Source of the DNA: Nitrososphaeraceae archaeon
Lineage (GTDB): Archaea > Thermoproteota > Nitrososphaeria > Nitrososphaerales > Nitrososphaeraceae
Length of the DNA: 48,622 bases
Direction of reading: 5' to 3'
Assembly (NCBI GenBank): GCA_021325295.1
Contig: JAJPHM010000045.1
Location: 1 to 48,622, forward strand
Under the pieces are notes generated by a model. It worked only from the letters and a program-made list of their open reading frames with translations, was not told the origin of the DNA and made no database searches. The position numbers and the translations under genes were made by a program. Positions 22,313 through 35,664 of this stretch are shown one piece after another (the stretch's first letter is position 1; each line of letters starts with the position of its first letter).

Positions 22313-22390
22313 TTAGTCTACTATAAAAAATTAAATTATAAATATTCTGGATAATTTAAAGACCTTTTAGACGAGCGTGAAAATAGCCCT

Positions 22391-22649
22391 ATTTGCAACG
22401 GTTACGAGTAGCAAATAGCGTTGCAAATTGAATTTTTTAAGTCACGGGTAAATTCACGGGTAACCATTTACACTGCTCACGGTTAAATGCAACGGCTCAA
22501 ATGGTAAACGGTCACTGTTTTGCGTTGCAAATACAACACATCTAGAAGATTAAAACCATGCTCAAAAGGCTCTATTTGCAACGAAAAAACGTTGCAAATA
22601 GGAAAATTTACCTGTAAACAATAGTTCCCGAAGTGTTGAATTTGCAACG
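22391..22649. repeat. Iteron-like array of ATTTGCAACG motifs
   Basis: Six exact copies of the 10-mer in both orientations: forward at 22391-22400, 22574-22583 and 22640-22649; inverted at 22419-22428, 22523-22532 and 22590-22599. The pair at 22572-22601 makes a perfect palindrome with 12-bp arms (CTATTTGCAACG / CGTTGCAAATAG) around six A residues. Between them lie CACGGGTAA and GGTAAACGGTCACTG blocks that recur in 25804-26083. The whole 462-base gap 22313-22774 is otherwise non-coding. It could be a replication origin, integrase arm sites or an operator array. Confidence 0.8.
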
Positions 22650-22757
22650 CATGACGACAAGCGTCTTTCTTTTCTTTTTAATTAAGATTTGTCGCAACTA
22701 CCAAACTATAAGACCTACAAGACTATGTAAAAATGTTAATATACCGCAGTTTGGTTT

Positions 22758-22770
22758 AACGATAATCGTT
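22758..22770. promoter_or_regulatory. Palindrome before the first element gene
   Basis: AACGATAATCGTT, a perfect 13-base palindrome, ends 4 bases before the TTG start at 22775, with an A/T box (GTTAATATACC) about 30 bases upstream of the start. It may be an autoregulatory operator for the encoded HTH protein. Confidence 0.5.
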
Positions 22771-22774
22771 ACCA

Positions 22775-23188
22775 TTGCTAGTTAAAGAAGCCAAGACCAT
22801 CATCAGATACGATCGCACTACTGGTAAGTGGTTGACATACAAGCAGAACGTCAAACGACTAACAGAAGATGCAAAGGCTCTCCTTTGGAAATTAAGAAAG
22901 CGCAGCTGTAGCATCAATTACATCAGCAAGCGTCTTGGTATCAGCACAAAAACTACTTGGTATTGGCTACACAAGTTTGCCAGTGAAAAAGGTCTTCCAT
23001 TGGTTGACCTGCGACACTTCAATGATGGTATGTCAAAGTTGCCAAAGTTCAAGTCATTGCATGCATATCTTTTGGAGAAATTCGAAAAGACCAATGATAT
23101 CAGATGGCTACCAAATGATATCTATCAACTTGGAAGCTATCGTTTGTTTGAAATTGTAAAGTTGTCCAAGCCTCCATTTGGCAAATGA
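22775..23188 (+). CDS. Helix-turn-helix DNA-binding protein
   Basis: A 137-residue protein starting at TTG 22775. The central part reads ALLWKLRKRSCSINYISKRL followed by GISTKTTWYWLHKFA, a clear HTH of the resolvase/transposase (Hin-like or sigma-4-like) type: helix, turn at LGIS, recognition helix TKTTWYWL. The C-terminal half (LPKFKSLHAYLLEKFEKTND...) is not assigned. It is the leftmost gene of the element and beside the iteron array, so it is a candidate iteron-binding or excision factor. Confidence 0.7.
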   Translation: MLVKEAKTIIRYDRTTGKWLTYKQNVKRLTEDAKALLWKLRKRSCSINYISKRLGISTKTTWYWLHKFASEKGLPLVDLRHFNDGMSKLPKFKSLHAYLLEKFEKTNDIRWLPNDIYQLGSYRLFEIVKLSKPPFGK

Positions 23189-23292
23189 CTTTCTATTACA
23201 CCAACAGCTATTTTTGGTGAATAGTGATTCTCCTGTCACATGAACTTATTGAGCAAATCCTTTAAATGGTGGCATTTTGTAATACATTTTGA

Positions 23293-24426
23293 ATGGCTGA
23301 TTTTTCGGTTGGTTTGAACAAGGAAGCCAATGATAAGTTAGAGAAAATCGCCAAAGAAAAAGGTCTCAGCAAAATGGAAGCGGTAATTAAATTGATACTT
23401 GATGGCTCCATTTTGTTAGAAAAAACCAGCATCGAAAACAATCAGTGCATGTATGGTTGCTTCATAGTGACAGACATGAAGGACGGCAAGCGTGATTATA
23501 GCTGCCCCATAGTTGCAAGAGACCCTTCACTTGGCACCAAAGAAAACATGCCCTTGCTAAAGGAATACTGCGGTGGCTGTGAAAAAAAGAAGGTATGGGC
23601 TGCCTTTGTCAGAGAAAGCATGAACAACCCTGCAGTATTGGGAAAGGAAGTAAAGCCAGCGCAACAGCTCAGAGAAAATAGCACAGGTCAACAGACTGCC
23701 TTGCAACAAGGTGCCAAGGCCGAGCAACCAATAGACCAAACCACAGGCCAAGGCCAGTCAGTGACACCAGCTTTAGCACCATCACAACAGCAATCAACTA
23801 TGATGCCTATCTCTTCCAAAGTTGTCAATTGCGCTTATGGTGACGGAATGCATTCTGTCACTACATGCAGAGATACGAAATACAAAAAAGGATGCGGTCA
23901 GCGAATCTATTTCCATAATCACGGCACGACAAAGAAACCAATTTGGGAGGTCATGGATGCCGATGCGCATGTTCCGCATGACTGCCCCCACCACAGGATA
24001 CACACCACTCCAGCTGAACCATCTTCTGCATCAGCATCAACAACACCGTCAGCTCAAGTCGCTTCCAACTCTTCTGAAATGAGAGGTAATGGTAGTAGTT
24101 TTGCTCATGGTGAGAGCGCTAGTCCAAGCTCTTTCAATTTTTCACCACAAATTAGAGAAGCAAAGGAGATAGCAAGCTCTTCTCCCATAGGCTCACCTCC
24201 ATCCCGCCTCTCACAGAATAAGAGCAATGGCGACTTTACCATCAGGTGCACATCCTGCGAAATGAAATGGACGTATTCAGCATTCAAGACAAGCATCAAT
24301 CCGCTCAAGTCAATGACAGACAGAATTGAAAGTCATGTCCGTTACTTTCATGGAAGAGACATGGTTGAAAGCGAAAATCCACAAAACCACTTGGAGCGCA
24401 TTAAAGGAGAGGAGGGGCATAGATAG
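23293..24426 (+). CDS. RHH/zinc-finger multidomain protein
   Basis: A 377-residue element protein. Residues 1-45 are RHH-like (MADFSVGLNKEANDKLEKIA then a helix MEAVIKLILDG). Residues 50-105 form a Cys-rich module (CMYGC...YSCP...YCGGCEKKK). A Gln/Pro/Ser-rich linker precedes a second Cys/His module (NCAYGDGMHSVTTCRDTKYK then CGQ and HDCPHHR). Another Ser-rich linker leads to a C-terminal C2H2-like finger (IRCTSCEMKWTYSAFKT...HVRYFHGRD). Probably a DNA-binding protein of the element; I know no named family. Confidence 0.7.
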   Translation: MADFSVGLNKEANDKLEKIAKEKGLSKMEAVIKLILDGSILLEKTSIENNQCMYGCFIVTDMKDGKRDYSCPIVARDPSLGTKENMPLLKEYCGGCEKKKVWAAFVRESMNNPAVLGKEVKPAQQLRENSTGQQTALQQGAKAEQPIDQTTGQGQSVTPALAPSQQQSTMMPISSKVVNCAYGDGMHSVTTCRDTKYKKGCGQRIYFHNHGTTKKPIWEVMDADAHVPHDCPHHRIHTTPAEPSSASASTTPSAQVASNSSEMRGNGSSFAHGESASPSSFNFSPQIREAKEIASSSPIGSPPSRLSQNKSNGDFTIRCTSCEMKWTYSAFKTSINPLKSMTDRIESHVRYFHGRDMVESENPQNHLERIKGEEGHR

Positions 24427-24432
24427 TTGGTC

Positions 24433-24603
24433 ATGGATACTCTGTTCTGCCAGCATGTCAATGAGCATGGAATCGCTCTATCAGTGATTAGGCTAGCAGG
24501 CGAAGAGCCATGTGAACCCTATGTCTTTGTGATTGGCTGTCAAGCATGCTTGCTGAAAGTAAAACCATTGCTCAATACCTTGGGAGGAGAACGCTATGAA
24601 TGA
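24433..24603 (+). CDS. Mini-protein with three Cys
   Basis: A 56-residue ORF, ATG 24433 to TGA 24603, too short for standard calling. It contains FCQHVNEHG, GEEPCEPYVFVIGCQACLLK and a helical end. The C-x-x-C plus C/H pattern suggests a small zinc fold. Its end overlaps the next start by 8 bases and a GGAGGGG lies upstream, so it is coupled within the left operon. Confidence 0.5.
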   Translation: MDTLFCQHVNEHGIALSVIRLAGEEPCEPYVFVIGCQACLLKVKPLLNTLGGERYE

Positions 24604-24757
24604 ATCTGCATCAGGTCAGATGCTTGCAAAGCGTCCTGTTGATTCAAGCTACTCTGATATACAAATCTGCTATCGCTGTTTGCATCACAGCGATTGTCAT
24701 GAAGACATAAGAGGCAACAAGCAATGCATCATATGTAAAAAGGTGTGCTCTTGTTAA
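24596..24757 (+). CDS. Zinc-ribbon mini-protein
   Basis: A 53-residue ORF with ATG at 24596 and TAA at 24755-24757. CYRCLHHSDCHEDIRGNKQC followed by IICKKVCSC gives C-x-x-C...C-x-x-C ligands. GGGAGGAG lies about 6 bases upstream of the start. It ends in TAATG shared with the next gene. Confidence 0.6.
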   Translation: MNESASGQMLAKRPVDSSYSDIQICYRCLHHSDCHEDIRGNKQCIICKKVCSC

Positions 24758-25446
24758 TGGCAGGTCAAATCAGCTGGAAAATTGAACACGGCTTTTTGGC
24801 ATTCTTTTGCAACAAGGATTGCTCTAATGGTATTAGATACTCATTGAGGCAAACCATCCTAATACTGAGAGAAGAATATGGCCAAACATTTTCAAAAGAA
24901 ACCACCGCAAGAATGATAGCAGACGTTGAAGAGATGCTATCGACAAGCCGAGCCATAAGAAAGCATTATCAAATATTCATAGCACCAATAGTCAGGCACC
25001 TTGACAAATACGTTTCAAGGTGGGACGAATGCATATTGCAAAATGCCAAGCCAAGAAAGATTTACAGGCAGAGTCATGAACAAGGTTGCGGTTGTCTTCA
25101 GTGTTTATTGAAAAAATACAAAGTGTTGCCCGAAGCAGCAGATCTATCACAGCAGGCCAGAGCTCCACATCTGCAACCGCCTATAGAAGAAAATCCATAC
25201 GCTCCACTCAAGCAGCGCCACATCTGTCTTAGTTGCTTTGTTCAAATACGCTCAGTATCAAAGCTTGAACGACACAAGAAGGAAAAGGGACACTATGACA
25301 TCTATCCTATCTATTCTATACTTGCGCAGAAAGCATTGCAAGCCAGAAGTGACCTTGAACCAAAAGTTACCATGCACAGACCCCAAAAAGAAGATAGATT
25401 CACCAAACAATCAAGTGAAAACCTTCCGATTGCTCAGGTCAGCTAG
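24757..25446 (+). CDS. C2H2 zinc-finger protein
   Basis: A 229-residue protein starting at ATG 24757 (the frame also runs up to GTG 24745). The first 100 residues are helical (ISWKIEHGFLAFFCNKDCSN and LRQTILILREEY). Later come CGCLQCLLKKY and a good C2H2 finger HICLSCFVQIRSVSKLERHK followed by KEKGHYD. Single C2H2 fingers of this type are common in archaeal viruses and plasmids as transcription factors. The start overlaps the upstream stop by one base (TAATG). Confidence 0.7.
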   Translation: MAGQISWKIEHGFLAFFCNKDCSNGIRYSLRQTILILREEYGQTFSKETTARMIADVEEMLSTSRAIRKHYQIFIAPIVRHLDKYVSRWDECILQNAKPRKIYRQSHEQGCGCLQCLLKKYKVLPEAADLSQQARAPHLQPPIEENPYAPLKQRHICLSCFVQIRSVSKLERHKKEKGHYDIYPIYSILAQKALQARSDLEPKVTMHRPQKEDRFTKQSSENLPIAQVS

Positions 25447-25494
25447 CTAGGTGGCTCACATTGATTATATTATCCTGCGACTGCAGGCTAGTTC

Positions 25495-25803
25495 TTGGAG
25501 CTCCGAGCAAAACTAGCCATAATTGGCATTCCTTCTCTTTTGACTACCATTGGAATATTGGCAGGAGTGAATTTCATAAAATTGAGTGACCTATCTTCTA
25601 TCGTTGCTTCCGCTCTTGTCAGTGGCATGATTGGTCTGGCCGTATGGGGCTTCAGACCTAAGGAGAAATTCGACAAGGCTTCCTATGAAAAGGAGCTGCG
25701 GGACAAGGAAGCAGTTGAAAACAAGCTCCATAATGAAAAGGCAATTAGAGAATTTAGGATGGCTGGCAGCCTGTCAGATACCGATGATTCTACCGATAAG
25801 TGA
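25495..25803 (+). CDS. Small two-TM protein with charged tail
   Basis: A 102-residue protein from TTG 25495. Hydrophobic segments are about residues 6-25 (KLAIIGIPSLLTTIGILAGV) and 33-53 (SIVASALVSGMIGLAVWGF). A strongly charged helical tail follows (KEKFDKASYEKELRDKEAVE then NKLHNEKAIRE). It is likely an element membrane protein with a cytoplasmic coiled coil. Function unknown. Confidence 0.55.
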   Translation: MELRAKLAIIGIPSLLTTIGILAGVNFIKLSDLSSIVASALVSGMIGLAVWGFRPKEKFDKASYEKELRDKEAVENKLHNEKAIREFRMAGSLSDTDDSTDK

Positions 25804-26083
25804 TAGCTAGTCACTGACTGACTGCTATTGACCGTTTACCGTTTAATTAGGCATTTACCATAAGGAACAGTAACCAGATTTTTGGTCTAACGTGACTATC
25901 GGGCAATTTTGAGCGTGACTAAAAAGGCAGCCACGCACGGTAAACGTAAATGGTTACTACATATGTTTTTTGGTCACTGACTGTAAGGAAATACCTACCA
26001 CAAATGAGCTTGTTTACTGGTGACTCGCTAACTGGTCACTGATTGTTTACCGTCCGTACTTATCATCTACTTTACAACCGTGT
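25804..26083. repeat. Non-coding repeat block, origin-like
   Basis: Between convergent genes. GTCACTGACTG occurs at 25810-25820, GGTCACTGA at 25972-25980, and GGTCACTGATTGTTTACCG at about 26032-26050. TTTACCGT-type motifs occur at 25831-25844 (ACCGTTTACCGTTT) and 25937-25946 (ACGGTAAACG, inverted). The same TTTACCGT/GGTAAACGGTCACTG words lie at 22500-22517 in the left block. Convergent flanking genes make a promoter unlikely; an origin or partition site would fit. Confidence 0.6.
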
Positions 26084-27079
26084 CTAGCTACTATTCTTTC
26101 TATTGTCGGATGCTTTCATTGGGTTTATGCCAATATCAATTAGCCTTCTGATTACCCGGCCAGTGTAGTTCTCGGCCTCTGTCTTGTCTTTGGCAAGGCT
26201 AGTAATGGGGTCAGAGTCAAAAGACCAACCCTTGGCATTGGATAAATGAAGAAAGAACCCTTGCAGGAAGGCTGGAAACTGTTGCCATTGCTCCGGTATC
26301 CTTTCAGTCGATAGATAGATGGTTTTGCCAAAATGCTCATAGAGGACGTAATTTTCGCCCATCTTGTCATGTTCATTTATTGCTACTTTTGGCGCTTCAA
26401 TGCCATAATAGTCGGCTAGGAGATTGCCGGCATCTTGAAACTTTTGTGCTCCTATGCAGTACGCGTATTTTGATAGGATGCTATCAGTAGGAATGTCGCA
26501 ACCTGTAAACGGTTGATTTCTACCAGTGTAACTATAAGATAGTAAATCCTTTCCAAGCATGTCTGGCCTTACGCCTCTATTGCCAAGTAACCTGACCATT
26601 CGCTCATGTTCTGAATAGGGATTATTTGCAATTTGCGCAGCTTGGTCTTCCACCTCTTCCTTTATTGCAATCATCAGGTCTGCTAATTCGAGCATATCCT
26701 TTGGTAGTTTGAGCGGTTTCCATCCTATGACAAGGGTGTTTCCATCAAGCAGGTTCATTTCAATAACTTCCTTTGGATCGTCTTCTGATTCAGCGCAATA
26801 ATCTTCCATGTCTTCCTGCACATATTTCAAAACGTGATTTGCCTCTCTTTTGGTAATTGCCCGGTCATCGTCTCTTGGGAAAAAGACCATATAATCAGCA
26901 ACCCCGAAAGCTAGGTCAATATACTCCCATGTGGCTCTATCTTCCAAATCGTCTGAAATGTGAACATCTGATAGCTGGTTATCTTTCATAAAGGCAATGA
27001 GGTAGGATAGGAGTTGCTTTGGCCTCTCTTCCTTCTTACTGCTTTTTTGAGGCTTGACAGCCTTTTTACTCTGTTTCAA
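26084..27079 (-). CDS. Element protein of unknown function
   Basis: A 331-residue protein with a Lys-rich N-terminus (1-23), a mixed domain including SDVHISDDLEDRATWEYIDL and YMVFFPRDDDRAITKREANH, a helical middle, and a C-terminal part with YYGIEAPKVAINEHDKMGEN and FPAFLQGFFLHLSNAKGW. The latter layout recalls zincin-type domains but has no HExxH. It overlaps the upstream regulator by 14 bases, so the two are co-transcribed and translated together. I do not recognise the family. Confidence 0.65.
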   Translation of the reverse strand: MKQSKKAVKPQKSSKKEERPKQLLSYLIAFMKDNQLSDVHISDDLEDRATWEYIDLAFGVADYMVFFPRDDDRAITKREANHVLKYVQEDMEDYCAESEDDPKEVIEMNLLDGNTLVIGWKPLKLPKDMLELADLMIAIKEEVEDQAAQIANNPYSEHERMVRLLGNRGVRPDMLGKDLLSYSYTGRNQPFTGCDIPTDSILSKYAYCIGAQKFQDAGNLLADYYGIEAPKVAINEHDKMGENYVLYEHFGKTIYLSTERIPEQWQQFPAFLQGFFLHLSNAKGWSFDSDPITSLAKDKTEAENYTGRVIRRLIDIGINPMKASDNRKNSS

Positions 27080-27530
27080 TACCTGCCGCCTCCAGTATGT
27101 CCTTGTAGTATTCTCTTCCTCTATCTCTCCATTCTTTTAACTTGGTTCTCACTTGTGGGACATTCAACAAAAATTCACAGTGTCGGCATCTGCCTGTGGC
27201 GCATACATTGCATGTTAAATCCCAAGCAAATGGATTGAACACTACTTCGACAATCCTATTTAGAGTAACATCAAACAATGAGATTGATTCCTCTTGGCTT
27301 GCTATCAAATAGTGCTGCAATTTTGGCTGCTCAAGGTAATCAAGGCCATACATCAAAAGAAGTGATATCGTACCATTCAGGGAAACTTCTTTTTTGTCAG
27401 CAAGTTGTCGAATCCGTTTCATGATGCTCTCAGGCTGACGTACAGAAAAACTGACTGTTTTGTGTTCCTTTGAAGTTAACCTTGAGTCTTCAGTAGCGTG
27501 GTGTCGTTTTGTATTACTTTCTGAAACCAC
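27066..27530 (-). CDS. RHH regulator with SWIM-like zinc motif (copy 1)
   Basis: A 154-residue protein from GTG 27530. Residues about 23-65 are RHH-like (HKTVSFSVRQPESIMKRIRQ then a helix NGTISLLLMYGLDYL). The C-terminal part has ISLFDVTLNRIVEVVF then LTCNVCATGRCRHCEFLLNV PQV, i.e. C-x-x-C-x4-C-x-H, resembling a SWIM zinc finger. The same layout, with fewer Cys, occurs in the protein at 27662-28045. A palindrome (27533-27549) sits immediately upstream, so it is likely autoregulated. It shares 14 bases with the downstream 331-aa gene. Confidence 0.7.
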   Translation of the reverse strand: MVSESNTKRHHATEDSRLTSKEHKTVSFSVRQPESIMKRIRQLADKKEVSLNGTISLLLMYGLDYLEQPKLQHYLIASQEESISLFDVTLNRIVEVVFNPFAWDLTCNVCATGRCRHCEFLLNVPQVRTKLKEWRDRGREYYKDILEAAGIETE

Positions 27531-27532
27531 AT

Positions 27533-27549
27533 GCTTAGCTAGACTAAGC
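27533..27549. promoter_or_regulatory. CTTAG operator, copy 1
   Basis: GCTTAG-CTAGA-CTAAGC, a palindrome with 6-bp arms, starts 3 bases upstream of the GTG start at 27530. It matches the operator at 28044-28064 in sequence and position. Confidence 0.65.
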
Positions 27550-27661
27550 TTTGTTATATTCTTTTAGTCCCTGAACTATGATGGCAAGAATGTATTTATG
27601 CATTAGTTGTCATTGAATTAGTTTCAAAATGCTAATTTCTTTTGCAGCGCTGGATTTGTGC

Positions 27662-28045
27662 TTAATCCGCCTCAGTATCGCTTTTGGATGGTCGTCTTAT
27701 CTGTAGCCTTCCTACTTCTGGCAACGCCAAAGCATAGTGTATATGAACGCAATCCTTGCTATTATCTAAATTGCAGTATAGATGATGGTCGCGTAGATAT
27801 ATTTCGACAGTTCTGTCAAGCTCAAAATCCTTGATAAATAGAATGTTGTCTTCATATGCTACCTTTGCAAGCTTAGGAGCGTACTTTCTCAAAAAAGCAT
27901 CTTTTTCAACATTCATTAATAGTAATTCATTTACGAAATTTGTGAAGTCAGGTGCCTTAATAGTGCCACTTTTGTAATATTCTTCAAGTTTCTTTACTAC
28001 CGTTGGTTTTAGTACTACTAATTTTTCACCGGGCTTTAATACCAT
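27662..28045 (-). CDS. RHH-like regulator with SWIM-like motif (copy 2)
   Basis: A 127-residue protein. The N-terminal VLKPTVVKKLEEYYKSGTIK then FTNFVNELLLMNV fits an RHH/helical DNA-binding domain. The C-terminal LFIKDFELDRTVEIYLRDHH then LYCNLDNSKDCVHIHYALAL PEV aligns with the protein at 27066 (FDVTLNRIVEVVF...C...CRHCEFLLNVPQV). The retained C-x7-C-x-H suggests a SWIM-like zinc site with one ligand lost. A perfect palindrome overlaps its ATG, so autoregulation is likely. It is transcribed leftward, divergent from the integrase operon. Confidence 0.7.
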   Translation of the reverse strand: MVLKPGEKLVVLKPTVVKKLEEYYKSGTIKAPDFTNFVNELLLMNVEKDAFLRKYAPKLAKVAYEDNILFIKDFELDRTVEIYLRDHHLYCNLDNSKDCVHIHYALALPEVGRLQIRRPSKSDTEAD

Positions 28046-28064
28046 GCTTAGTGTAACTAAGCAT
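28044..28064. promoter_or_regulatory. CTTAG operator, copy 2
   Basis: Perfect palindrome with 9-bp arms ATGCTTAGT and ACTAAGCAT around GTA. Its first bases overlap the start codon of the regulator at 28045. Confidence 0.7.
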
Positions 28065-28095
28065 TACTAATCAGAATGATAGTCTATAACTTTTG

Positions 28096-28167
28096 TCCTT
28101 AGGATTACTTAGTATCACTTAGCTATATTTATTAACTGGAACTTAGTTACACTTAGGTGAGCTAAGT
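28096..28167. promoter_or_regulatory. Divergent promoter with five CTTAG half-sites
   Basis: ACTTAG occurs at 28107-28112, 28117-28122, 28141-28146 and 28151-28156, and its inverse CTAAGT at 28162-28167, overlapping the TTG start of the first operon gene. A TATA box (CTATATTTATTAA) lies at about 28123-28135 between the two pairs. The half-sites match the arms of the two palindromes upstream of the regulators, so these regulators probably repress the integrase operon. Confidence 0.7.
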
Positions 28168-28331
28168 TGAAGGCTAGAGCGTTGACGTCTGTTGCAATTA
28201 AGAGAGCAAGGTTGAATGGCCTCAAAGCAGCAGCGGAAAAAAACAAACGTGATGCGTCCAAAGAGCTTGATTTTATTCTAGAACAAGCGGGCATCCCTGA
28301 GATAGACGAATACGGAGGTAGGGAAAATTGA
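28167..28331 (+). CDS. Small basic protein heading the integrase operon
   Basis: A 54-residue ORF from TTG 28167 to TGA 28331: an Arg/Lys/Ala-rich helix (LTSVAIKRARLNGLKAAAEK) then an acidic end (ELDFILEQAGIPEIDEYGG). Its stop overlaps the integrase start (TTGA), so it is coupled. It may be an excisionase-like or accessory factor from position only. Confidence 0.5.
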   Translation: MKARALTSVAIKRARLNGLKAAAEKNKRDASKELDFILEQAGIPEIDEYGGREN

Positions 28332-29824
28332 ACTCCCGCAAATGGCAGATAGAGAAACATGGCTTCTATGCCCTTTATCACACTACTGAAAGGCCAAACC
28401 CGTTGAGTATGGCACAATGCGCCGAAGAAATGACCAAGGAATTTCTCATGCAATTTGACAAATCAAAGGTTAGCAGAATAGTATCTCAGACAAAAGAAGG
28501 GCTTGCAGAAAATGAAGAATTGAGGAAGCAATGGGAAGCATTTAAAATTGAACAGGGAACGCCTAGAGGCTACCTTTTCAAAAGGGAGCTTGATGCCAAA
28601 AATCAAATAATATGGACTTCTCCTTATGAAGAAGGCCAACGCTATCTCATTGAAAAGAAAGCCAAAAAATCATTTGATGGCATGGTAACAGGACTCAATC
28701 GTATTTATGAAGAGATTGGCAAGATTCCTCCAAAGAAATGGACATATGAACTTGTTAAAGGCTATCTTGATAACATTGCCCTAAATGAGAGCAAAGACGA
28801 AGCATTTCAAAAATGCGTCCTGATTAGGAATTTTCTACCACGCAAATTTGGCACTGGCGGAGAGACCCCGATAAAGACAGACCAATACAAGCGCTCAATC
28901 AACGAGCGAGTCAAGACATATGATTTGTTCACTGACGAAGTCGAAGCCGTCATTACCTACATTGAGCGTCAGGGCTTTTGGTATGTCGCTGGCCTACACA
29001 GAATCCACATGCTCCTAGGATGCAGAGAAGGCACCATAACCCATGAGCGAGACATGGCAAGAAATGAAAATGGTAAAGGTGGCATCCTAGGACTTCTATG
29101 GAAAAATATCGACTGGAACAACCAAACCATCGATGTATTTGAGGGCAAGGTCAAAGGTGGTATTCTGTGGAAAGGCTGCCCACTAGACTTGTTTGAATGG
29201 GAAGTAATGGAATACCTTGAGCGACTCAAGACATTCAAAGGAAGCTTTGTTCTACCAAATATTCCATTCACAAAGCCTAACCGTTCCAATCCAAAGGAGC
29301 CTATAGTCTATTACAAAGATGTTGAGGTCGAGATAGAGCCAAGTGAACAGGTTGTCTTTAACATTTCATACGACAAGCTGAACTCAATCTACCGCTACAT
29401 CAACAGCATCTATGAAAAGCTATGGGGCAGACAAGCAGGAGCAGCAAATTATCGTAAATTTGATAAAATTACGCCTCACACAGCAAGACACCTCCATTGC
29501 AATCTTCTCTTTGAGCGTGGTGTGGACTCTACCGTCATTTGTGGAGATGCTGCAAGAGGTGAAGGTTTTGTCGGTGTTGGATGGACTGACGAAACTACCA
29601 TGAAAACATACTATCTCTCACTTGTCAGAAGAACGGTTCAGAAATGGATTGACCAAGCCAAGAAGGGCAAGGGCAAATTCAGACCATTTGCTTCTTCTCC
29701 TTCCTCTGCTTCAAAGCGTGTTGGCAAAAAGCTCCAACAGGAAAGTGAGGAAGACGAAGAGCAAGAGCAGGAACAGCAAGAAGACACCACTACTGCCGAT
29801 GACCTAGAAGAGAGTGGAGGTTGA
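28328..29824 (+). CDS. Tyrosine recombinase (integrase)
   Basis: A 498-residue site-specific recombinase. The N-terminal 200 residues include a SAM-like/core-binding region (YLIEKKAKKSFDGMVTGLNR). The catalytic domain has Arg I in LLGCREGTI (R233) with GLLWKNIDWNNQTIDVF, Lys in EGKVKGG (about 274-276), the H-x-x-R box HTARHLHCNLL (H384, R387), and the nucleophile Tyr in MKTYYLSL (Y428 or Y429). A Ser-rich then Glu/Gln-rich acidic tail follows (450-498). It starts at TTG 28328 with GGAGGT 8 bases upstream. It should catalyse integration and excision; the att site is not identified. It is not the split SSV type. Confidence 0.85.
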   Translation: MNSRKWQIEKHGFYALYHTTERPNPLSMAQCAEEMTKEFLMQFDKSKVSRIVSQTKEGLAENEELRKQWEAFKIEQGTPRGYLFKRELDAKNQIIWTSPYEEGQRYLIEKKAKKSFDGMVTGLNRIYEEIGKIPPKKWTYELVKGYLDNIALNESKDEAFQKCVLIRNFLPRKFGTGGETPIKTDQYKRSINERVKTYDLFTDEVEAVITYIERQGFWYVAGLHRIHMLLGCREGTITHERDMARNENGKGGILGLLWKNIDWNNQTIDVFEGKVKGGILWKGCPLDLFEWEVMEYLERLKTFKGSFVLPNIPFTKPNRSNPKEPIVYYKDVEVEIEPSEQVVFNISYDKLNSIYRYINSIYEKLWGRQAGAANYRKFDKITPHTARHLHCNLLFERGVDSTVICGDAARGEGFVGVGWTDETTMKTYYLSLVRRTVQKWIDQAKKGKGKFRPFASSPSSASKRVGKKLQQESEEDEEQEQEQQEDTTTADDLEESGG

Positions 29825-29828
29825 GAGC

Positions 29829-30038
29829 ATGGGGCAAAGAGTAGCAAAAGAGTTACTTATGGCGCTCGGAGGCAAGGCCACCATTCAACAGATAAGAGCT
29901 CTTGCAAAGGAGCGCTATTCTGACTCGATTTCAGAAGGCATGGCAAGAGACTTACGCAATCTCAGGAAATGGCATGAAGTCAAATTCAATCTTGCTGACA
30001 AGACATGGGAAATAATCCAAAGCAAGGAGGTGAACTGA
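29829..30038 (+). CDS. Winged-helix mini-protein
   Basis: A 69-residue wHTH from ATG 29829 (the frame also has GTG 29814), with GGAGGT just upstream. It reads LLMALGGKATIQQIRALAKE then LRNLRKWHEVKFNLADKTWE, the helix-helix-wing pattern. It is paralogous to the protein at 31642 (GGPATKEQIRALARQKG). Confidence 0.65.
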   Translation: MGQRVAKELLMALGGKATIQQIRALAKERYSDSISEGMARDLRNLRKWHEVKFNLADKTWEIIQSKEVN

Positions 30039-30042
30039 GAAG

Positions 30043-30432
30043 ATGGCAACACTAGATATTAACCCAAGACTCTATGAGGCAATCAAGTCAGAGGCAGTAA
30101 AGCAAAATCTATCTGTGCCAGAAGTTGCAAACCAGATTGTTGAAAAAGGGCTGCAGAACAGAGGCGTTGACATTTGCGTAACTGAACCAGAAGTGACAGA
30201 AGTAGAACAATTCAGAATACAGACAGACATCTTGATTCGCAAAATGCTGAAACTATCAATGAAGCATTTTGTAGTAGGCCTTGACGACAAAGAACTTAAG
30301 GAATTTGAAGAATGGCTTCCAAGAGCCTATTCTTTGCTAACCAATAGACTGATTGTTTTCAGCTATGGTCTTGCAGGACCAGAGACACCCACAGCAGAAC
30401 GCCTCCTTGAGGACATAATGACATCACTTTAG
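30043..30432 (+). CDS. RHH-like regulator
   Basis: A 129-residue protein. The N-terminus ATLDINPRLYEAIKSEAVKQ then LSVPEVANQIVEKGL fits a ribbon-helix-helix. The rest is helical (IQTDILIRKMLKLSMKHFVV and ELKEFEEWLPRAYSLL). AAGGAGG lies 12 bases before the ATG. Its role is probably regulation or partition; the evidence is fold-like only. Confidence 0.6.
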   Translation: MATLDINPRLYEAIKSEAVKQNLSVPEVANQIVEKGLQNRGVDICVTEPEVTEVEQFRIQTDILIRKMLKLSMKHFVVGLDDKELKEFEEWLPRAYSLLTNRLIVFSYGLAGPETPTAERLLEDIMTSL

Positions 30433-30446
30433 TCGAGGGATATAAC

Positions 30447-31172
30447 ATGAACCAAGCAGCCAAACAGACCGCAGAATTGGCCTCAGACATTGATACTTTG
30501 GATATCGATGTCTCGGCTCTTTTCAAAAGTGGCTACCATATAATTGCAGGGACGGCAAAGCAAAAGAGCTACTATGTCTCAGTGGCATACCCTGAGGTCC
30601 ATGTTCTGAACAACTTTATCGGCGGCCACCTCAGAACTAGGGGCATAGGTGACGGAGCCTATCCTCTTCCCTACTTGGATTTTATAGATGCTGTTTTTGG
30701 CCAAGAAAAGAATACCATCGAAGTATGTTCAAGGCATGTAAAAGTTGACGACATAAGGACAACATTCACGGTTGACATCAACCCATCTTTTCAACCCTCA
30801 TTGGTTACAGATGGTCAAAAGCTCTGTGGTGTGCCATCACAGAGTTTCAATAGATGGAGATGCGATCCACCCTACAATGAGAAAACTGCAAAGCTGATGT
30901 ATCAGACCACTCTTCCCAGCCTCTATGGATTGCTAAAGGCTGGTTCTCGTGTCTGCAAAATAGGCTCTTTGCTGTTCTTGCTAGCATCAAAGAATTTTCA
31001 GATGTGCGAAGGGCTAGGACTGAAAAGGATTGGCGCAATCCCAATTACAGTAGTGCCTAACAATGAGCTTCGCTGTTGCAACATCTTTTACAAATATGAG
31101 CACCCTTCCAGCCTTGAAGAAAAGGATTACAGTTCACAATCGGTGCTGCCGTCAGCGGCTTTGGATAGGTGA
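30447..31172 (+). CDS. DPPY-motif methyltransferase-like protein
   Basis: A 241-residue protein with RWRCDPPYNEKTAKLMY. DPPY (residues 140-143) is motif IV of N6-adenine (and N4-cytosine-like) DNA methyltransferases. Upstream TIEVCSRHVK and TVDINPSF could be motifs I/II of the SAM-binding fold. Downstream LLKAGSRVCKIGSLLFLLAS fits a later strand-helix. It lies in the element operon, where a methyltransferase would modify or protect element DNA. The fold assignment rests mainly on one motif and order, so it is provisional. Confidence 0.55.
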   Translation: MNQAAKQTAELASDIDTLDIDVSALFKSGYHIIAGTAKQKSYYVSVAYPEVHVLNNFIGGHLRTRGIGDGAYPLPYLDFIDAVFGQEKNTIEVCSRHVKVDDIRTTFTVDINPSFQPSLVTDGQKLCGVPSQSFNRWRCDPPYNEKTAKLMYQTTLPSLYGLLKAGSRVCKIGSLLFLLASKNFQMCEGLGLKRIGAIPITVVPNNELRCCNIFYKYEHPSSLEEKDYSSQSVLPSAALDR

Positions 31173-31181
31173 TTAATTGAA

Positions 31182-31373
31182 ATGTTTAGGTCTTTGAAAT
31201 TTGAGTTCAGCGGCGGCATGTCAGAGATTGAAACCATAATGGATGCTATAGCTGATTGCCTTAAAGCCCATCCTCAGACTGACTTTAACATTGCAATTTC
31301 TCTGACTGCTAATTTGCAGACCGTTGGAAGACGCTCAGCATCACAAGTCAATGCAAAGGAGGCTGCAGTCTGA
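31182..31373 (+). CDS. Small element protein
   Basis: A 63-residue protein from ATG 31182, 9 bases after the methyltransferase-like gene. Pattern: strand SLKFEFSGGMSEIE, helix TIMDAIADCLKAH, strand FNIAISLTANLQ, then a polar tail. Such a small alpha/beta unit is unassigned. Its stop is at 31373, directly at the next start. Confidence 0.5.
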   Translation: MFRSLKFEFSGGMSEIETIMDAIADCLKAHPQTDFNIAISLTANLQTVGRRSASQVNAKEAAV

Positions 31374-31374
31374 A

Positions 31375-31638
31375 TTGAATACCATTCCCGTAATTGAGCA
31401 TCTGCTATCAGAGTTTGAAAGCTTGATGGATAAAATCCACAAAATAGAAGCCGAATCCATCACACAAGAATCTAATTCAATGCTATCAAAACTCACAAGG
31501 CTTTCTGCTTCAATGAAGGAAGAGCTGAAAAAAGATATGATATCTCTTGTCCAACTTCAGAATGCATGTCCTGTTAAAGGCTGCGATTTGTGCCAGCAAA
31601 GAGCAAAGCTTGTCAGAAGAATTGTGGAGGTGCTTTAA
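31375..31638 (+). CDS. Small coiled-coil protein with Cys motif
   Basis: Start chosen at TTG 31375, because AAAGGAGG lies 12 bases upstream; the frame stays open to 31324. About 87 residues: helical (IPVIEHLLSEFESLMDKIHK) with a C-terminal CPVKGCDLCQQR, a C-x4-C-x-x-C zinc-like cluster. Unknown function; the next gene begins 4 bases later. Confidence 0.55.
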   Translation: MNTIPVIEHLLSEFESLMDKIHKIEAESITQESNSMLSKLTRLSASMKEELKKDMISLVQLQNACPVKGCDLCQQRAKLVRRIVEVL

Positions 31639-31641
31639 TCC

Positions 31642-31920
31642 ATGCCTCACCAAATTCATGTATATCTTTTGCTAAACAAGATAGGCGGTCCAGCCACAAA
31701 GGAGCAAATCAGAGCGCTTGCCCGACAAAAGGGCTATGAAAGAGGATTCTTTGACAAAGTAGAACGTGCCCTGAATGAACTCACAAAGTATGGCATAGTC
31801 GAGTGGTCGGGCAATCGAGTGTCGATTGTGGAAAAAGACTGGGCTGATGCCATAGAGCATCAATGCGAGTTCTGCTGTCTATCATTGAAAGACAAGGAGA
31901 TTGAAGCAATTGAAGGTTGA
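31642..31920 (+). CDS. Winged-helix protein
   Basis: A 92-residue wHTH (LLLNKIGGPATKEQIRALAR then ALNELTKYGIVEWSGNRVSI) with a C-terminal CEFCCLSLKDKE that may hold a metal. It resembles the shorter wHTH at 29829. A GGAGG lies upstream of the ATG. Confidence 0.65.
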   Translation: MPHQIHVYLLLNKIGGPATKEQIRALARQKGYERGFFDKVERALNELTKYGIVEWSGNRVSIVEKDWADAIEHQCEFCCLSLKDKEIEAIEG

Positions 31921-32104
31921 TACTTCCTGCCTCAAAATATGGTGTGAGCGCTGCATGTTATTCCACAAGATTGAAGACTTGCTACCAATCTACAACCCCA
32001 AAGCTGTAGGCTATGTTTGCACCAACGATAAGGTGATGCATCGAATATTACTAGTAGTCGAAGAAGCCAAAAGCAGCACTGTGACGACTAGCAAGGAGGT
32101 TTGA
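31910..32104 (+). CDS. Small zinc-binding protein
   Basis: About 64 residues. Start at TTG 31910, because AAGGAG (31894-31899) is 10 bases upstream of it but only one base from the alternative TTG 31901. Contains CLKIWCERCMLF, a C-x4-C-x-x-C, and a later Cys in VGYVCTN. Overlaps the end of the wHTH gene. Confidence 0.5.
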   Translation: MKVDTSCLKIWCERCMLFHKIEDLLPIYNPKAVGYVCTNDKVMHRILLVVEEAKSSTVTTSKEV

Positions 32105-32107
32105 AAT

Positions 32108-32395
32108 ATGCCATCAACCTTACGTGAAAGGCCAACCGTTCTGAGCGTGCTTTTGCAGCTGCGTCTTTCCTGCGGCATGTGCAACAAGCAAACAGAACTC
32201 CTTGCCACCCCATTTGAAAAGGCCAAGAGCGGTGCAATGTATCCTGTTTGCAGACATTGTGGTCAAAGACTAGCAGTTCGCCGGTGGAAAGAAAGCCTTG
32301 AAAATCATCAATTGAAAAAAGGAGTAATTTCCCTTATCCGGGAGATTAGAGCCAATCCCCAAATTGCCTTGGTAGGAGGCGTATCAGCACAATGA
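32108..32395 (+). CDS. Zinc-ribbon protein
   Basis: A 95-residue protein with CGMCNKQTELL and CRHCGQRLAVRR, two C-x-x-C knuckles 24 residues apart, a classic zinc ribbon, followed by a basic helix. AAGGAGG is 8 bases upstream of the ATG. Its stop overlaps the next start (ATGA). Confidence 0.65.
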   Translation: MPSTLRERPTVLSVLLQLRLSCGMCNKQTELLATPFEKAKSGAMYPVCRHCGQRLAVRRWKESLENHQLKKGVISLIREIRANPQIALVGGVSAQ

Positions 32396-32529
32396 AGTTC
32401 TGCCTTAACCGATGTGGTAACAAGGCCAAGTCTGGCGACTTTTGTGACCCACTCTGCAAGTATGGATTTTCTGTTCAGGCATACAGGGAATTGCACGAAG
32501 ATAAGAAGCCAAAGGTGCTCATGGAATGA
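32392..32529 (+). CDS. Zinc mini-protein
   Basis: A 45-residue ORF from ATG 32392 to TGA 32529: FCLNRCGNKAKSGDFCDPLC then KYGFSVQAYRELHED. Two Cys pairs (C-x3-C and C-x3-C) suggest a compact zinc site. Overlaps both neighbours by 4 bases. Confidence 0.55.
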   Translation: MKFCLNRCGNKAKSGDFCDPLCKYGFSVQAYRELHEDKKPKVLME

Positions 32530-32705
32530 TGCAAAGGCAATACCAATACGAATCAGAATGTGACCATTACTGGCGCTACTGCTGGGTCTTTACGGCCAAA
32601 GTTGCAGTATGTGACCATTGCGGAGAATTTGACTATGGTGCAGATCCATCAGTTAACCAATCAATGGAGGCTTGCTGGAATGAAACCAAAGATGCAAGAC
32701 TGTGA
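32526..32705 (+). CDS. Zinc mini-protein
   Basis: A 59-residue ORF from ATG 32526 to TGA 32705. It includes ESECDHYWRYCWVF and AVCDHCGEFDYG, with C-x-x-C and further Cys/His that could bind zinc. Start overlaps the preceding stop by 4 bases. Confidence 0.5.
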   Translation: MMQRQYQYESECDHYWRYCWVFTAKVAVCDHCGEFDYGADPSVNQSMEACWNETKDARL

Positions 32706-32838
32706 GCAGGCTAGCCACAATGGCCATGCTCACCAGTGTGCCAATTGCGGCATTGTATTTGATTGCTCATGTCCTTATTGGACTGTCTTTCAGATTAGAA
32801 GGTGCAATACTTGTAATGGAGGCTTGATAGAGAATTGA
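32680..32838 (+). CDS. Zinc mini-protein
   Basis: A 52-residue ORF. ATG 32680 is preferred over the longer frame from 32560, whose N-terminal part merely reads through the upstream gene. Ligand-rich segment: ASHNGHAHQCANCGIVFDCS then CPYW and RRCNTCNGG. Its stop overlaps the helicase start. Confidence 0.5.
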   Translation: MKPKMQDCEQASHNGHAHQCANCGIVFDCSCPYWTVFQIRRCNTCNGGLIEN

Positions 32839-34397
32839 GTCAAACCACTGAACAGACTCAAAGCCTTGATTCTTTGGCTTCAAAACTACTGGATGCACAG
32901 CAAAAGTCGGCGCTGGCCATCTCTACATTAACCGATACCATCAGGTCAATAAATGACGCTCAGGCACAAGCACAGGAAAAGCTCAATTCATTATCGGCAG
33001 AGATGCAGTTTATCAATTCTGCTTCGCAACCTTTAGACAAAGAACAGGTAAAGGAATTTTGGAAGCAGCCCTACGTTATAGTGCCCAGAAGAAAAAGTGA
33101 CGAGTGGTATGTTTGCTGTCCTACCTTTGTCCCATTTCAGATAGGCTGGCTTGAAAAGACTATCAATGGATGGAATTACTTTATTGTCAACAAATACATG
33201 CACTGGCTTGGCAAAATACCTGACGAGCTCAAAAAAGTATTTGACCTCAAAGAACCTCTGCCAGTAAAAATTAGCCATGACATGGATTTTCTGTTAACAG
33301 AGAATGAGCAATTCCAAGAACAGGCTTGGGAGCGATACAGCAAGTTTCTTTATCGGCGTGAAGGCAAAGATAAGATTGCTATCAAAAAAGGCTATGAATT
33401 TGACCTAATAGCCAGCATGATAAATGATGGCATCTTGCCTTTCCTTCCTAGGCCTGTAGACTCGGAAGACCTGCGAGAAGCTATGTTAACTTTTACTCTC
33501 AGAGCCTACCAAGAAAAGTGTCTAAATGCATTTTTGCAATATGGAGCAATCGGTATCTTTTACCCACCGGGCAGTGGCAAGACCTACATGGGAATTAACG
33601 CTTTAGCTAGAATCAAGGGAAGAAAATGCATAGTGGTTCCTACTCTGACTTTAATAGAGCAGTGGAAAGATAGGATTGAAAAGTTCATACCACAACGCAA
33701 AAGCGAAATTGACATTATCACATACAATGGCTATGAGAAGGTCAGAGATAATACCTACACGCTGACCATCTATGACGAATGCCATCGATTACCTGCCAAT
33801 AGTTATTCAAAGCTCTCCACAATCAGAACCAAATACAGAATTGGCCTATCTGCAACCCCATTAAGAGAAGATGGTCGCACAGATTACATCTTTGCTTTAA
33901 CTGGCTATCCTGTTGGGACGAGCTGGCAAGAGCTAATTGCTAAAGGTATCATTCGCATACCTTTGATACGTCTCTATATTGTGCAAGACGAACGGGACAA
34001 AATTGCCAAGATAAAGGAGATATTGGCAGAGAAGAGAAAGACCATCATTTACAGCTATTGGCTTGAGCTTGGTAGCAAGATTGCAAAGCAGTTTAACCTT
34101 CCTTTTATCAATGGAGCCACAACTAACAGACTGGAAGCCTTGAAGAATGCAGAGATAGCAGTAGTTTCAAGCGTTGGAGGGGAAGGGCTGAGCCTTCCTG
34201 ACCTTGAGCGTGTCATAGAAGCAGGTTTTCAGTATGGCAGTCGAAGAGAAGAGGCTCAGCTATTGGGTAGATTGTTCCACTCGGAAAAGAAAGACTTGGA
34301 GCACATTATACTAATGACAGAGAGGGAATTGGAATCATACGAAAAGAGGCTCTATGCAATCAGAGAACAGAACTTTCGATTGGAAATTGTCAGGTGA
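32835..34397 (+). CDS. SF2 helicase (XPB/DEAD-like)
   Basis: A 520-residue superfamily 2 helicase starting at TTG 32835. The first 200 residues are helical and specific to this element. Motif Q/0 is LRAYQEKCLNAFL, Walker A is PPGSGKT (GSGKT 246-250), motif Ia VVPTLTLIEQW, Walker B DECH (314-317), motif III SATPLRED (339-341). The second RecA domain ends with VVSSVGGEGLSLPDLERVIE and motif VI-like AQLLGRLFHSEK. Most similar in layout to XPB/Ssl2-like DNA helicases. A probable replication or packaging motor for the element. Confidence 0.85.
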   Translation: MSQTTEQTQSLDSLASKLLDAQQKSALAISTLTDTIRSINDAQAQAQEKLNSLSAEMQFINSASQPLDKEQVKEFWKQPYVIVPRRKSDEWYVCCPTFVPFQIGWLEKTINGWNYFIVNKYMHWLGKIPDELKKVFDLKEPLPVKISHDMDFLLTENEQFQEQAWERYSKFLYRREGKDKIAIKKGYEFDLIASMINDGILPFLPRPVDSEDLREAMLTFTLRAYQEKCLNAFLQYGAIGIFYPPGSGKTYMGINALARIKGRKCIVVPTLTLIEQWKDRIEKFIPQRKSEIDIITYNGYEKVRDNTYTLTIYDECHRLPANSYSKLSTIRTKYRIGLSATPLREDGRTDYIFALTGYPVGTSWQELIAKGIIRIPLIRLYIVQDERDKIAKIKEILAEKRKTIIYSYWLELGSKIAKQFNLPFINGATTNRLEALKNAEIAVVSSVGGEGLSLPDLERVIEAGFQYGSRREEAQLLGRLFHSEKKDLEHIILMTERELESYEKRLYAIREQNFRLEIVR

Positions 34398-34403
34398 TGC
34401 AGA

Positions 34404-34544
34404 TTGAAGAAAATTGAAATTGATTGCACTGACAGGGTCGCAGAGAGTCTAAGAATATACCTGAAAATGCGCTTGCACAAGGGCGATACAATGGACGTGA
34501 AGATTATTGATTTTGAATCTAATGAAGTAGAGGTATTGAAATAA
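34404..34544 (+). CDS. Small element protein
   Basis: A 46-residue ORF from TTG 34404 to TAA 34544, reading KKIEIDCTDRVAESLRIYLK then LHKGDTMDVKIIDFESNEVE. A strand-helix-strand unit; unknown. It ends in TAATG shared with the next gene. Confidence 0.4.
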   Translation: MKKIEIDCTDRVAESLRIYLKMRLHKGDTMDVKIIDFESNEVEVLK

Positions 34545-34765
34545 TGTTCAAGGTCTGTTTCAATTGCGGAGACAGGGGAATTGTCTTCTGGCCTTGTCCT
34601 AACTGCGAGGCTCCTCTATGTCCCAAATGCATAAGGTCACAAATCCCTTTCGAGTGCAGATATTGTCAAGCATTAATACAATTTCGTTGGCAATGCAAAG
34701 AAGCTCTACAAGCTTATACCCAGCGGCAGCGCCCTTTGGGCGCACTTGTCACTTTGAACCCTTAG
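34544..34765 (+). CDS. Zinc-ribbon/RING-like mini-protein
   Basis: A 73-residue Cys-rich protein: VCFNCGDRGIVFWPCPNCEA, then PLCPKCIRSQIPFECRYCQA. Five C-x-x-C-type pairs give two interleaved or tandem zinc sites, like a RING or double ribbon. Last gene of the operon. Confidence 0.65.
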   Translation: MFKVCFNCGDRGIVFWPCPNCEAPLCPKCIRSQIPFECRYCQALIQFRWQCKEALQAYTQRQRPLGALVTLNP

Positions 34766-34786
34766 AATTTAGATGTGTTCTTGCTA

Positions 34787-34836
34787 GTTGCAAATTGATT
34801 CACGCATGGTTTCTTTGATGGTCACCAATTTGCAAC
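34787..34836. repeat. Right-end inverted pair of the element motif
   Basis: GTTGCAAAT at 34787-34795 and ATTTGCAAC at 34828-34836 face each other across 32 bases. They match the six-copy array at 22391-22649 and mark the probable right end. The rest of 34766-35043 holds no gene that I can support, only the cdvB promoter side. Confidence 0.65.
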
Positions 34837-35043
34837 AAACGACTAATCTGGAACAATGAGAAGATATCGCTATTACTCTAAAAATCTGAGGGCCAAGTGT
34901 AAGAGAAGATCAGTTGACTACTAGACTGTCAAAGCCACTTTTTATTAAAATCTCAACTCGATATGATATTGTGAAGGATTCTTGCCGCTGGGTCTAACAG
35001 ATCACACCTAGGTAATTAATAATAGATTCTGCAATCAACGAAA

Positions 35044-35664
35044 ATGCCAAATTTCAGCAAGAGTTGGATTCACTCCGATAAGCAAATAGACGTAAAAGGC
35101 AAGCTGCAAACAGTATTCAAGCGTGACCCATTAAAGCCAAAAATCGATAACGCAGTAAAGAAACTTGAGGCACAGATATCAAAGCTTGAAGCAATGACTG
35201 CCAAGATAACAGAAAAGGAAAATGCCATCTTCAAGAAAGTGGTGGATGCACTACAAAAACATGATACTGATGCTGCAAAAGCTCATGCCAACGAACTTGT
35301 AGAGGTGCGCAAGATTTCTAAAATGCTGAACCAGACAAAAATGGCACTGGAGCAGGTTGCATTGCGCCTCACGACCATTACAGATATGGGGGATGTGATG
35401 ACGACCCTCGTTCCAGCGATATCTTCGGTGAAGGGTCTGAAATCAAAGCTAGGCAGGTTCATCCCTGGCGCTGACAGCGAAATGGGAAACATGCAAAGCC
35501 TTCTTGAAGGTCTCATGGGCTCACTTCAGGGCAATGGAACAAACATCAGCCTGGATTCAGGTTCAGAGCAAGAAGTTGAACAGATATTGAAGGAAGCATC
35601 TGCTCTTGCAGAGAATCAAGTGAGTGACAGATTGCCATCAGGTAACTGGAGTTCAAAAGCGTGA
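35044..35664 (+). CDS. cdvB: CdvB-like ESCRT-III protein
   Basis: A 206-residue Snf7/ESCRT-III homologue of the archaeal cell-division (Cdv) machinery, which forms filaments that constrict the division neck. Diagnostic parts: LKPKIDNAVKKLEAQISKLE, ENAIFKKVVDALQKHDTDAA then KAHANELVEVRKI, LEQVALRLTTITDMGDVMTT and LVPAISSVKGLKSKLGRFIP. The core is complete, but the C-terminal extension is short and I see no winged-helix-like tail, so it may be a CdvB paralogue rather than the main copy. It lies just right of the integrated element. Confidence 0.92.
   Translation: MPNFSKSWIHSDKQIDVKGKLQTVFKRDPLKPKIDNAVKKLEAQISKLEAMTAKITEKENAIFKKVVDALQKHDTDAAKAHANELVEVRKISKMLNQTKMALEQVALRLTTITDMGDVMTTLVPAISSVKGLKSKLGRFIPGADSEMGNMQSLLEGLMGSLQGNGTNISLDSGSEQEVEQILKEASALAENQVSDRLPSGNWSSKA

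Follow-up and report, generated by a model that had tools for sequence, protein, structure and literature searches.

The window analyzed here is positions 1-48,622 of contig JAJPHM010000045.1 (GenBank assembly GCA_021325295.1) of a Nitrososphaeraceae archaeon, an ammonia-oxidizing organism. Between two divergent host genes, a dehydrogenase and a paralogue of cdvB, it carries a block of genes and end sequences (Table 1) that is almost certainly an integrated mobile element. Its span is most likely 22346-34852, a unit of 12,501 bp, and an integrated 12.5-kb element with these ends is the probable arrangement. An initial annotation had proposed a new mobile element at 22380-34840, bracketed by its own repeat family and with a gene set belonging to no recognizable family. 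The bracketed element and its novelty were supported by our analysis, while the repeats are probably not its ends and the gene set is partly recognizable.

Table 1. Features of the integrated element and its ends (positions in the window)
Feature	Position	Strand	Remark
attL core candidate TCTGGA	22346..22351	+	left element end
Left repeat array	22389..22649	.	six ATTTGCAACG copies, two 12-6-12 dyads, nested larger palindrome
Second repeat family within left array (CACGGGTAA, GGTAAACGGTCACTG)	22443..22520	.	
HTH137, helix-turn-helix protein, first element gene	22775..23188	+	weak HTH Pfam matches
zn377, Cys-rich zinc protein, ribbon-helix-helix (RHH)-like start	23293..24426	+	
p233, integrase-like N-terminal domain and zinc finger	24745..25446	+	
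Convergent intergenic region, iteron-like repeats GGTAAAC and GGTCACTG	25804..26083	.	repeats common to left array
p331	26084..27079	-	
p154, RHH/Arc-like regulator	27066..27530	-	
p127, homologue of reversed gene at same place in G011 proviruses	27662..28045	-	28%, E 7e-14
Divergent p127/p54 promoter, four operator-like ACTTAGTnnnACTTAG-like copies	28046..28156	.	
p54, small protein upstream of integrase	28167..28331	+	54% over 41 aa to G011 proviruses, same position
int498, tyrosine integrase, N-terminal helical DNA-binding domain (predicted)	28328..29824	+	
p74 and p129, small regulators; p129 Arc-like, p74 resembles p92	29814..30432	+	
DPPY methyltransferase-like protein	30447..31172	+	phrog_3816 E 2e-9
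Small-protein run, several with CxxC zinc motifs	31182..32838	+	read from translations
XPB/Rad25-like SF2 helicase, candidate replication protein	32835..34397	+	
p73, zinc mini-protein, last gene	34544..34765	+	
Hairpin GCGCCC-TTT-GGGCGC near right end	34729..34743	.	unique in window
Right repeat pair, GTTGCAAATTG-28 nt-CAATTTGCAAC	34787..34836	.	
attR core candidate TCTGGA	34847..34852	+	right element end

The integrase, SF2 helicase, DPPY protein, regulators and zinc mini-proteins previously listed between the two repeat clusters were all found. The integrase int498 has the catalytic motifs R, HTAR, GW and Y, and it matched phrog_1 (E 1e-8) as well as Pfam Phage_integrase (E 1.9e-4, below the curated cut-off). 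In its structural model the N-terminal domain consists of four helices with a pLDDT of about 80-87, the overall pLDDT is 45 and the catalytic part is unusable. The model of p331 (pLDDT 71) had no significant PDB match. The helicase was assigned through Pfam ResIII (4e-18) and XPBII structures (E 1e-29). When the ten larger proteins were searched against Pfam and PHROGs, no capsid, packaging or conjugation (VirB4/VirD4-type) gene was found, nor any Cas1, PolB or transposase. The window contains no tRNA gene, and the G+C content of the element (42.4%) compares with 41.6% for the rest of the window.

Repeat clusters and candidate attachment core

The repeat family is built on the word ATTTGCAAC, a 9-10-mer with eight exact copies in the window against 0.91 expected; none of 100 shuffles reached eight, and in 2000 random pairs of zones of equal size no k-mer recurred as frequently at the two ends. 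Six copies lie at 22391-22648 in the orientations +, -, -, +, -, +, all with a G directly 3', and a -/+ pair lies at 34787-34836, neither copy being followed by G. The rest of the window has none, and the positions claimed for the family (six on the left, two inverted on the right) were all exact. The family had also been called private, which holds for the clusters and not in the strict sense, since the genome holds 56 copies, 48 of them beyond the window, scattered across 2.69 Mb and nowhere clustered. Within the left array, a perfect dyad, CTATTTGCAACG-AAAAAA-CGTTGCAAATAG, occupies 22572-22601 and a near-perfect one, CTATTTGCAACG-GTTACG-AGTAGCAAATAG, 22389-22418. The former is enclosed by a larger palindrome centered near 22586, with 27-nt arms (22521-22547 and 22625-22651) that are 85% complementary. 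Copies at both ends and in both orientations could be taken for the terminal inverted repeats of a DNA transposon, a reading we consider extremely improbable: several copies of mixed orientation sit at one end, no convincing target-site duplication lies outside the outermost copies, no transposase or Cas1 was detected among the proteins searched, and a tyrosine integrase is present.

The repeats probably lie just inside the ends rather than forming them. TCTGGA, found at 22346 and again at 34847, is the only word of at least five bases common to both end zones examined, a direct repeat of 6 identical bp that is backed by its position; random zone pairs shared it in 98 of 200,000 trials. From this position we infer that TCTGGA is likely to be the attachment core. 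It precedes the first ATTTGCAAC copy by 45 nt on the left and follows the start of the last copy by 19 nt on the right, and the corresponding distances are 38 and 18 nt in two proviruses of genome G011 described below. The GC-rich hairpin near the right end lies 118 bp before the right core, as compared with 134 bp in the same proviruses and 123 bp in a third G011 element beside tRNA-Tyr; its stem is identical in the window and the proviruses, and the hairpin of the tRNA-Tyr element is similar. A hairpin match at another locus (L114) was set aside, as its stem differs and no element was seen there.

Other end sequences were tried and rejected. The outermost ATTTGCAAC pair was ruled out as crossover sites by mismatching flanking bases, as was the 12-bp GTTGCAAATTGA (22420/34787); matches of 12 bp also arise often when random zones are compared. 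A further repeat, CAAAGCCACT (22291 and 34930), was assigned to host sequence because, past this repeat, the start region of the dehydrogenase is similar to that of its paralogue. The dehydrogenase and the cdvB paralogue were not neighbors in the relatives fetched, and the synteny of the flanks is not conserved.

Related elements in genome G011

Relatives of HTH137 were found in a single other genome, G011, as two copies 19 kb apart. They belong to two nearly identical elements arranged in tandem (C1:237-274 kb), the first of which has a 1.3-kb insertion. By their match to the published description, we take the pair to be NitGar-E1 and NitGar-E2, double-jelly-roll (STIV-like) proviruses described from Ca. 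Nitrososphaera gargensis, of which E1 carries an ISH3 insertion (PMC6563490, extracts). The tandem copies define the attachment core TCCAGAAA without an empty site, since it is present at both outer ends of the pair and where the two copies meet; this junction reads GGGGTT-TCCAGA-AACGCC. Four TGTTAC repeats lie just inside the left proviral core. Two more, - and then +, mark the right end, where the second begins 18 nt ahead of the core.

The window element resembles these proviruses in its left region, with HTH137 (43% identical) as first gene, a reversed p127, p54, the integrase on the plus strand and a zinc protein; zn377 matched a provirus protein at 23% over 126 aa (E 4e-5). The order and strands of this left-end module are common to both, the module being a trait seen here and not a published definition, and the integrase match is remote only. 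Also common are the intergenic insertion, a short sequence of the form TCYRGA as core (a candidate in the window), element-specific repeats inside both ends, and a hairpin of the same stem before the right repeat pair and core. In contrast, the window element has no homologue of the proviral packaging ATPase or capsid candidate, its repeats are unrelated in sequence to the proviral ones, and it has an XPB-like helicase and a different methylase. The claim that its gene set is unlike any named family was too broad, as the left-end module is recognizable in the proviruses.

A third, unnamed element lies beside tRNA-Tyr in G011 (C1:1218998 to about 1230391). The N-terminus of its integrase is matched by both int498 and p233, and its left-end core, GGCGTT-TCTGGA-AACACC, falls with that of the window in the same hexamer class, TCYRGA, as does the proviral core. 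It has TGGACA repeats of its own and a hairpin near the right end. It differs from the window element in gene content and in its weak repeat enrichment at the right end.

We considered whether the region could be a genomic island of long standing that no longer moves, its integrase fixed or decayed and its repeats due to chance. Its G+C content, equal to that of the rest of the window, the lack of a second copy and the short core are what such an island would have. Its larger genes are nevertheless all intact, the integrase retains its catalytic motifs, and the repeats, hairpin and core persist at the two ends with the spacing seen in the proviruses, which makes this explanation quite improbable.

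Possible arm-type attachment site

In the attP site of phage lambda, arm sites bound by Int lie on both sides of the attachment core. We tentatively propose that the ATTTGCAAC repeats are arm-type recombination sites of the same general design, and this, with its presumed binder, is the weaker part of our interpretation. The element's own tyrosine integrase would insert it at the short core TCTGGA, between the divergent dehydrogenase and cdvB-paralogue genes. Excision would release a 12,501-bp circle that brings the right repeat pair, core and left array next to one another, with the predicted junction ...CGACTAA-TCTGGA-TAATTTAAAG..., and would leave the predicted empty site ...AAATAT-TCTGGA-ACAATGAG... 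in the chromosome. In this circle, ATTTGCAAC copies would flank the core on both sides and could serve as accessory (arm-type) binding sites, most likely for the N-terminal helical domain of the integrase. p233, which has the same domain type, and HTH137 are candidate regulators of direction and expression, and p233 might compete with the integrase or act as its directionality factor. The proposed likeness to attP consists of a short core, flanking repeated sites for a second DNA-binding domain (predicted here) and arms that integration splits between the two ends. No homology is claimed, and the window element differs in that neither IHF nor Xis was identified in it.

The binder could also be a repressor. 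On this somewhat unlikely alternative, the repeats would be operators, most simply for HTH137, acting in the style of an immunity repressor on its own promoter and on transcripts at the right end, with no role in recombination. The left array indeed lies directly upstream of HTH137, the G011 proviruses have their left repeats in the same place relative to the homologous gene (43%), and dyads with A-tract spacers would suit a dimeric regulator. The promoter between p127 and p54 also carries operator-like repeats of its own kind, and TTTACTGTA copies occur at the equivalent proviral promoter (C1 near 239.1 kb); from the sequence, each element has a putative operator of its own kind there. However, the right pair follows the last gene and does not directly precede any element gene, operators need no placement on both sides of the core, and the repeats differ wholly in sequence between elements though HTH137 is 43% identical. 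The N-terminal domains of the window and proviral integrases differ and so do the repeats, the proviral integrase having a winged-helix-like start unrelated to that of int498. Because integrase start and repeats are both unrelated, we favor the integrase over HTH137 as the binder, with two cases only to compare.

A replication role was weighed as well. The left array and right pair, united in the circle, could be iterons of an origin that an initiator would open together with the XPB-like helicase, the only replication candidate. Several inverted copies lie close together with AT-rich spacers, and a second repeat family is common to the left array and to the convergent, non-promoter region at 25.80-26.08 kb. 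Against this stand the lack of a recognized initiator, the split at the attachment site, which fits recombination better, and the presence farther inside of a region that looks more like an origin (25804-26083), has no ATTTGCAAC and is itself a possible replication origin. We regard the iteron explanation as unlikely, and operator, iteron and arm-site roles may be combined.

Several observations weigh against the core and the arm-type sites. The core rests on position and six bases, neither an empty site nor a circular junction was found, and a 6-bp direct repeat alone is at chance level for zones of this size. It reads TCTGGA in the window and TCCAGA in the provirus pair, and the inverted arms (GGGGTT/AACGCC) around the core of the other two elements were not seen in the window. 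The end-repeat enrichment, matched by 0 of 2000 random pairs for the window, is less marked in the proviruses and the tRNA-Tyr element (8 and 19 of 2000), the 8-bp right end assigned to the latter is provisional, and the genome holds no second copy of the window element. Characterized archaeal integrases are moreover reported to act without a directionality factor (PMC8371274, extracts).

For the same reported lack of a directionality factor (PMC8371274, extracts), a multi-site attachment site would be new in archaea, and the extracts of PMC6563490 and PMC8371274 make no mention of one. It is also conceivable, though somewhat less likely than not, that the window element and its G011 counterparts represent a thaumarchaeal group of viruses and plasmid-like elements with lambda-like sites, in which a short TCYRGA core has on both sides element-specific repeats bound by a separate N-terminal integrase domain, with a p233-like directionality protein. 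If so, they would differ from the characterized archaeal integrases. A multi-site attachment site, of which we know of no described case in archaea, would be the archaeal equivalent of lambda's and would make direction control in archaeal integrases testable. Most thaumarchaeal integrated elements are cryptic, with ends that are hard to define because the attachment repeats are very short. A conserved module of repeats, hairpin and core, if true, would find such ends without an empty site and would link plasmid-like cryptic elements to proviruses.

Classification and distribution

Thaumarchaeal elements of this kind have been catalogued as cryptic integrated elements (CIEs; PMC6563490, extracts), and we file the window element among them because its larger proteins include none recognizable as serving capsid, packaging or conjugation. 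Going by the same extracts, it resembles CIEs in its tyrosine integrase, mostly unknown genes, short candidate attachment site and intergenic target; its length of 12.5 kb compares with a published median of 17 kb, and an SF2 helicase has been reported for at least one of them, NitDev-E3. It differs in its core-flanking end repeats, not described in those extracts, and in its 6 identical bp as against a published minimum attachment repeat of 8 bp. The capsid and packaging ATPase required of the double-jelly-roll provirus group were not found in it, nor were the VirB4/VirD4-type transfer genes of an integrative-conjugative element. As for casposons, neither Cas1 nor PolB was found, and the repeats are not terminal inverted repeats.

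The genes of the element are patchily distributed. With its own genome counted, the integrase occurs in 3 of 191 genomes from the order and, class-wide, HTH137 in 2, p331 in 8, the helicase in 9 and the methylase in 10 of 400 genomes. The fetched neighborhoods of methylase, helicase and p331 relatives each had at most one element gene in common with the window. Conservation of the same genes at this place in most relatives, the pattern that the initial annotation had set against a mobile element, was looked for, and the genes are absent from nearly all. Searches of IMG/VR gave no match for the integrase, p331, HTH137 or p127, and a genome-contig collection gave none for the integrase or the dehydrogenase. 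The helicase had one IMG/VR match, on a bacteriophage-like contig (L065) with the helicase alone in common with the window. Since its own genome, the relatives searched and IMG/VR all yielded no further copy, the suggestion of a new element is upheld.

Some of these relatives have distinctive surroundings. The helicase relative on L065 is full-length (38%) and lies among unrelated genes. In two genomes (L099 and L100, in G190 and G145), the p331 relatives adjoin large helicase and restriction-like genes, perhaps a defense island, and at three other loci (L101-L103) a short p331 relative lies within a stable housekeeping neighborhood. A methylase relative in G008 (L108:2529-10155) belongs to a probable element adjoining tRNA-Met, and the gene that immediately follows the tRNA is likely to encode an integrase.

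Outside the element, the cdvB paralogue (35044-35664) is one of six CdvB/Snf7-type matches in the genome, and its nearest relatives (67%) occur in 2 of 70 genomes of the family. On the other side, genes for surface sugars and sulfation extend over 456-20993 (sulfotransferase, glycosyltransferases, dTDP-sugar epimerase and adenylylsulfate kinase), and an IS605-type OrfB/TnpB gene is located at 13513-14688.

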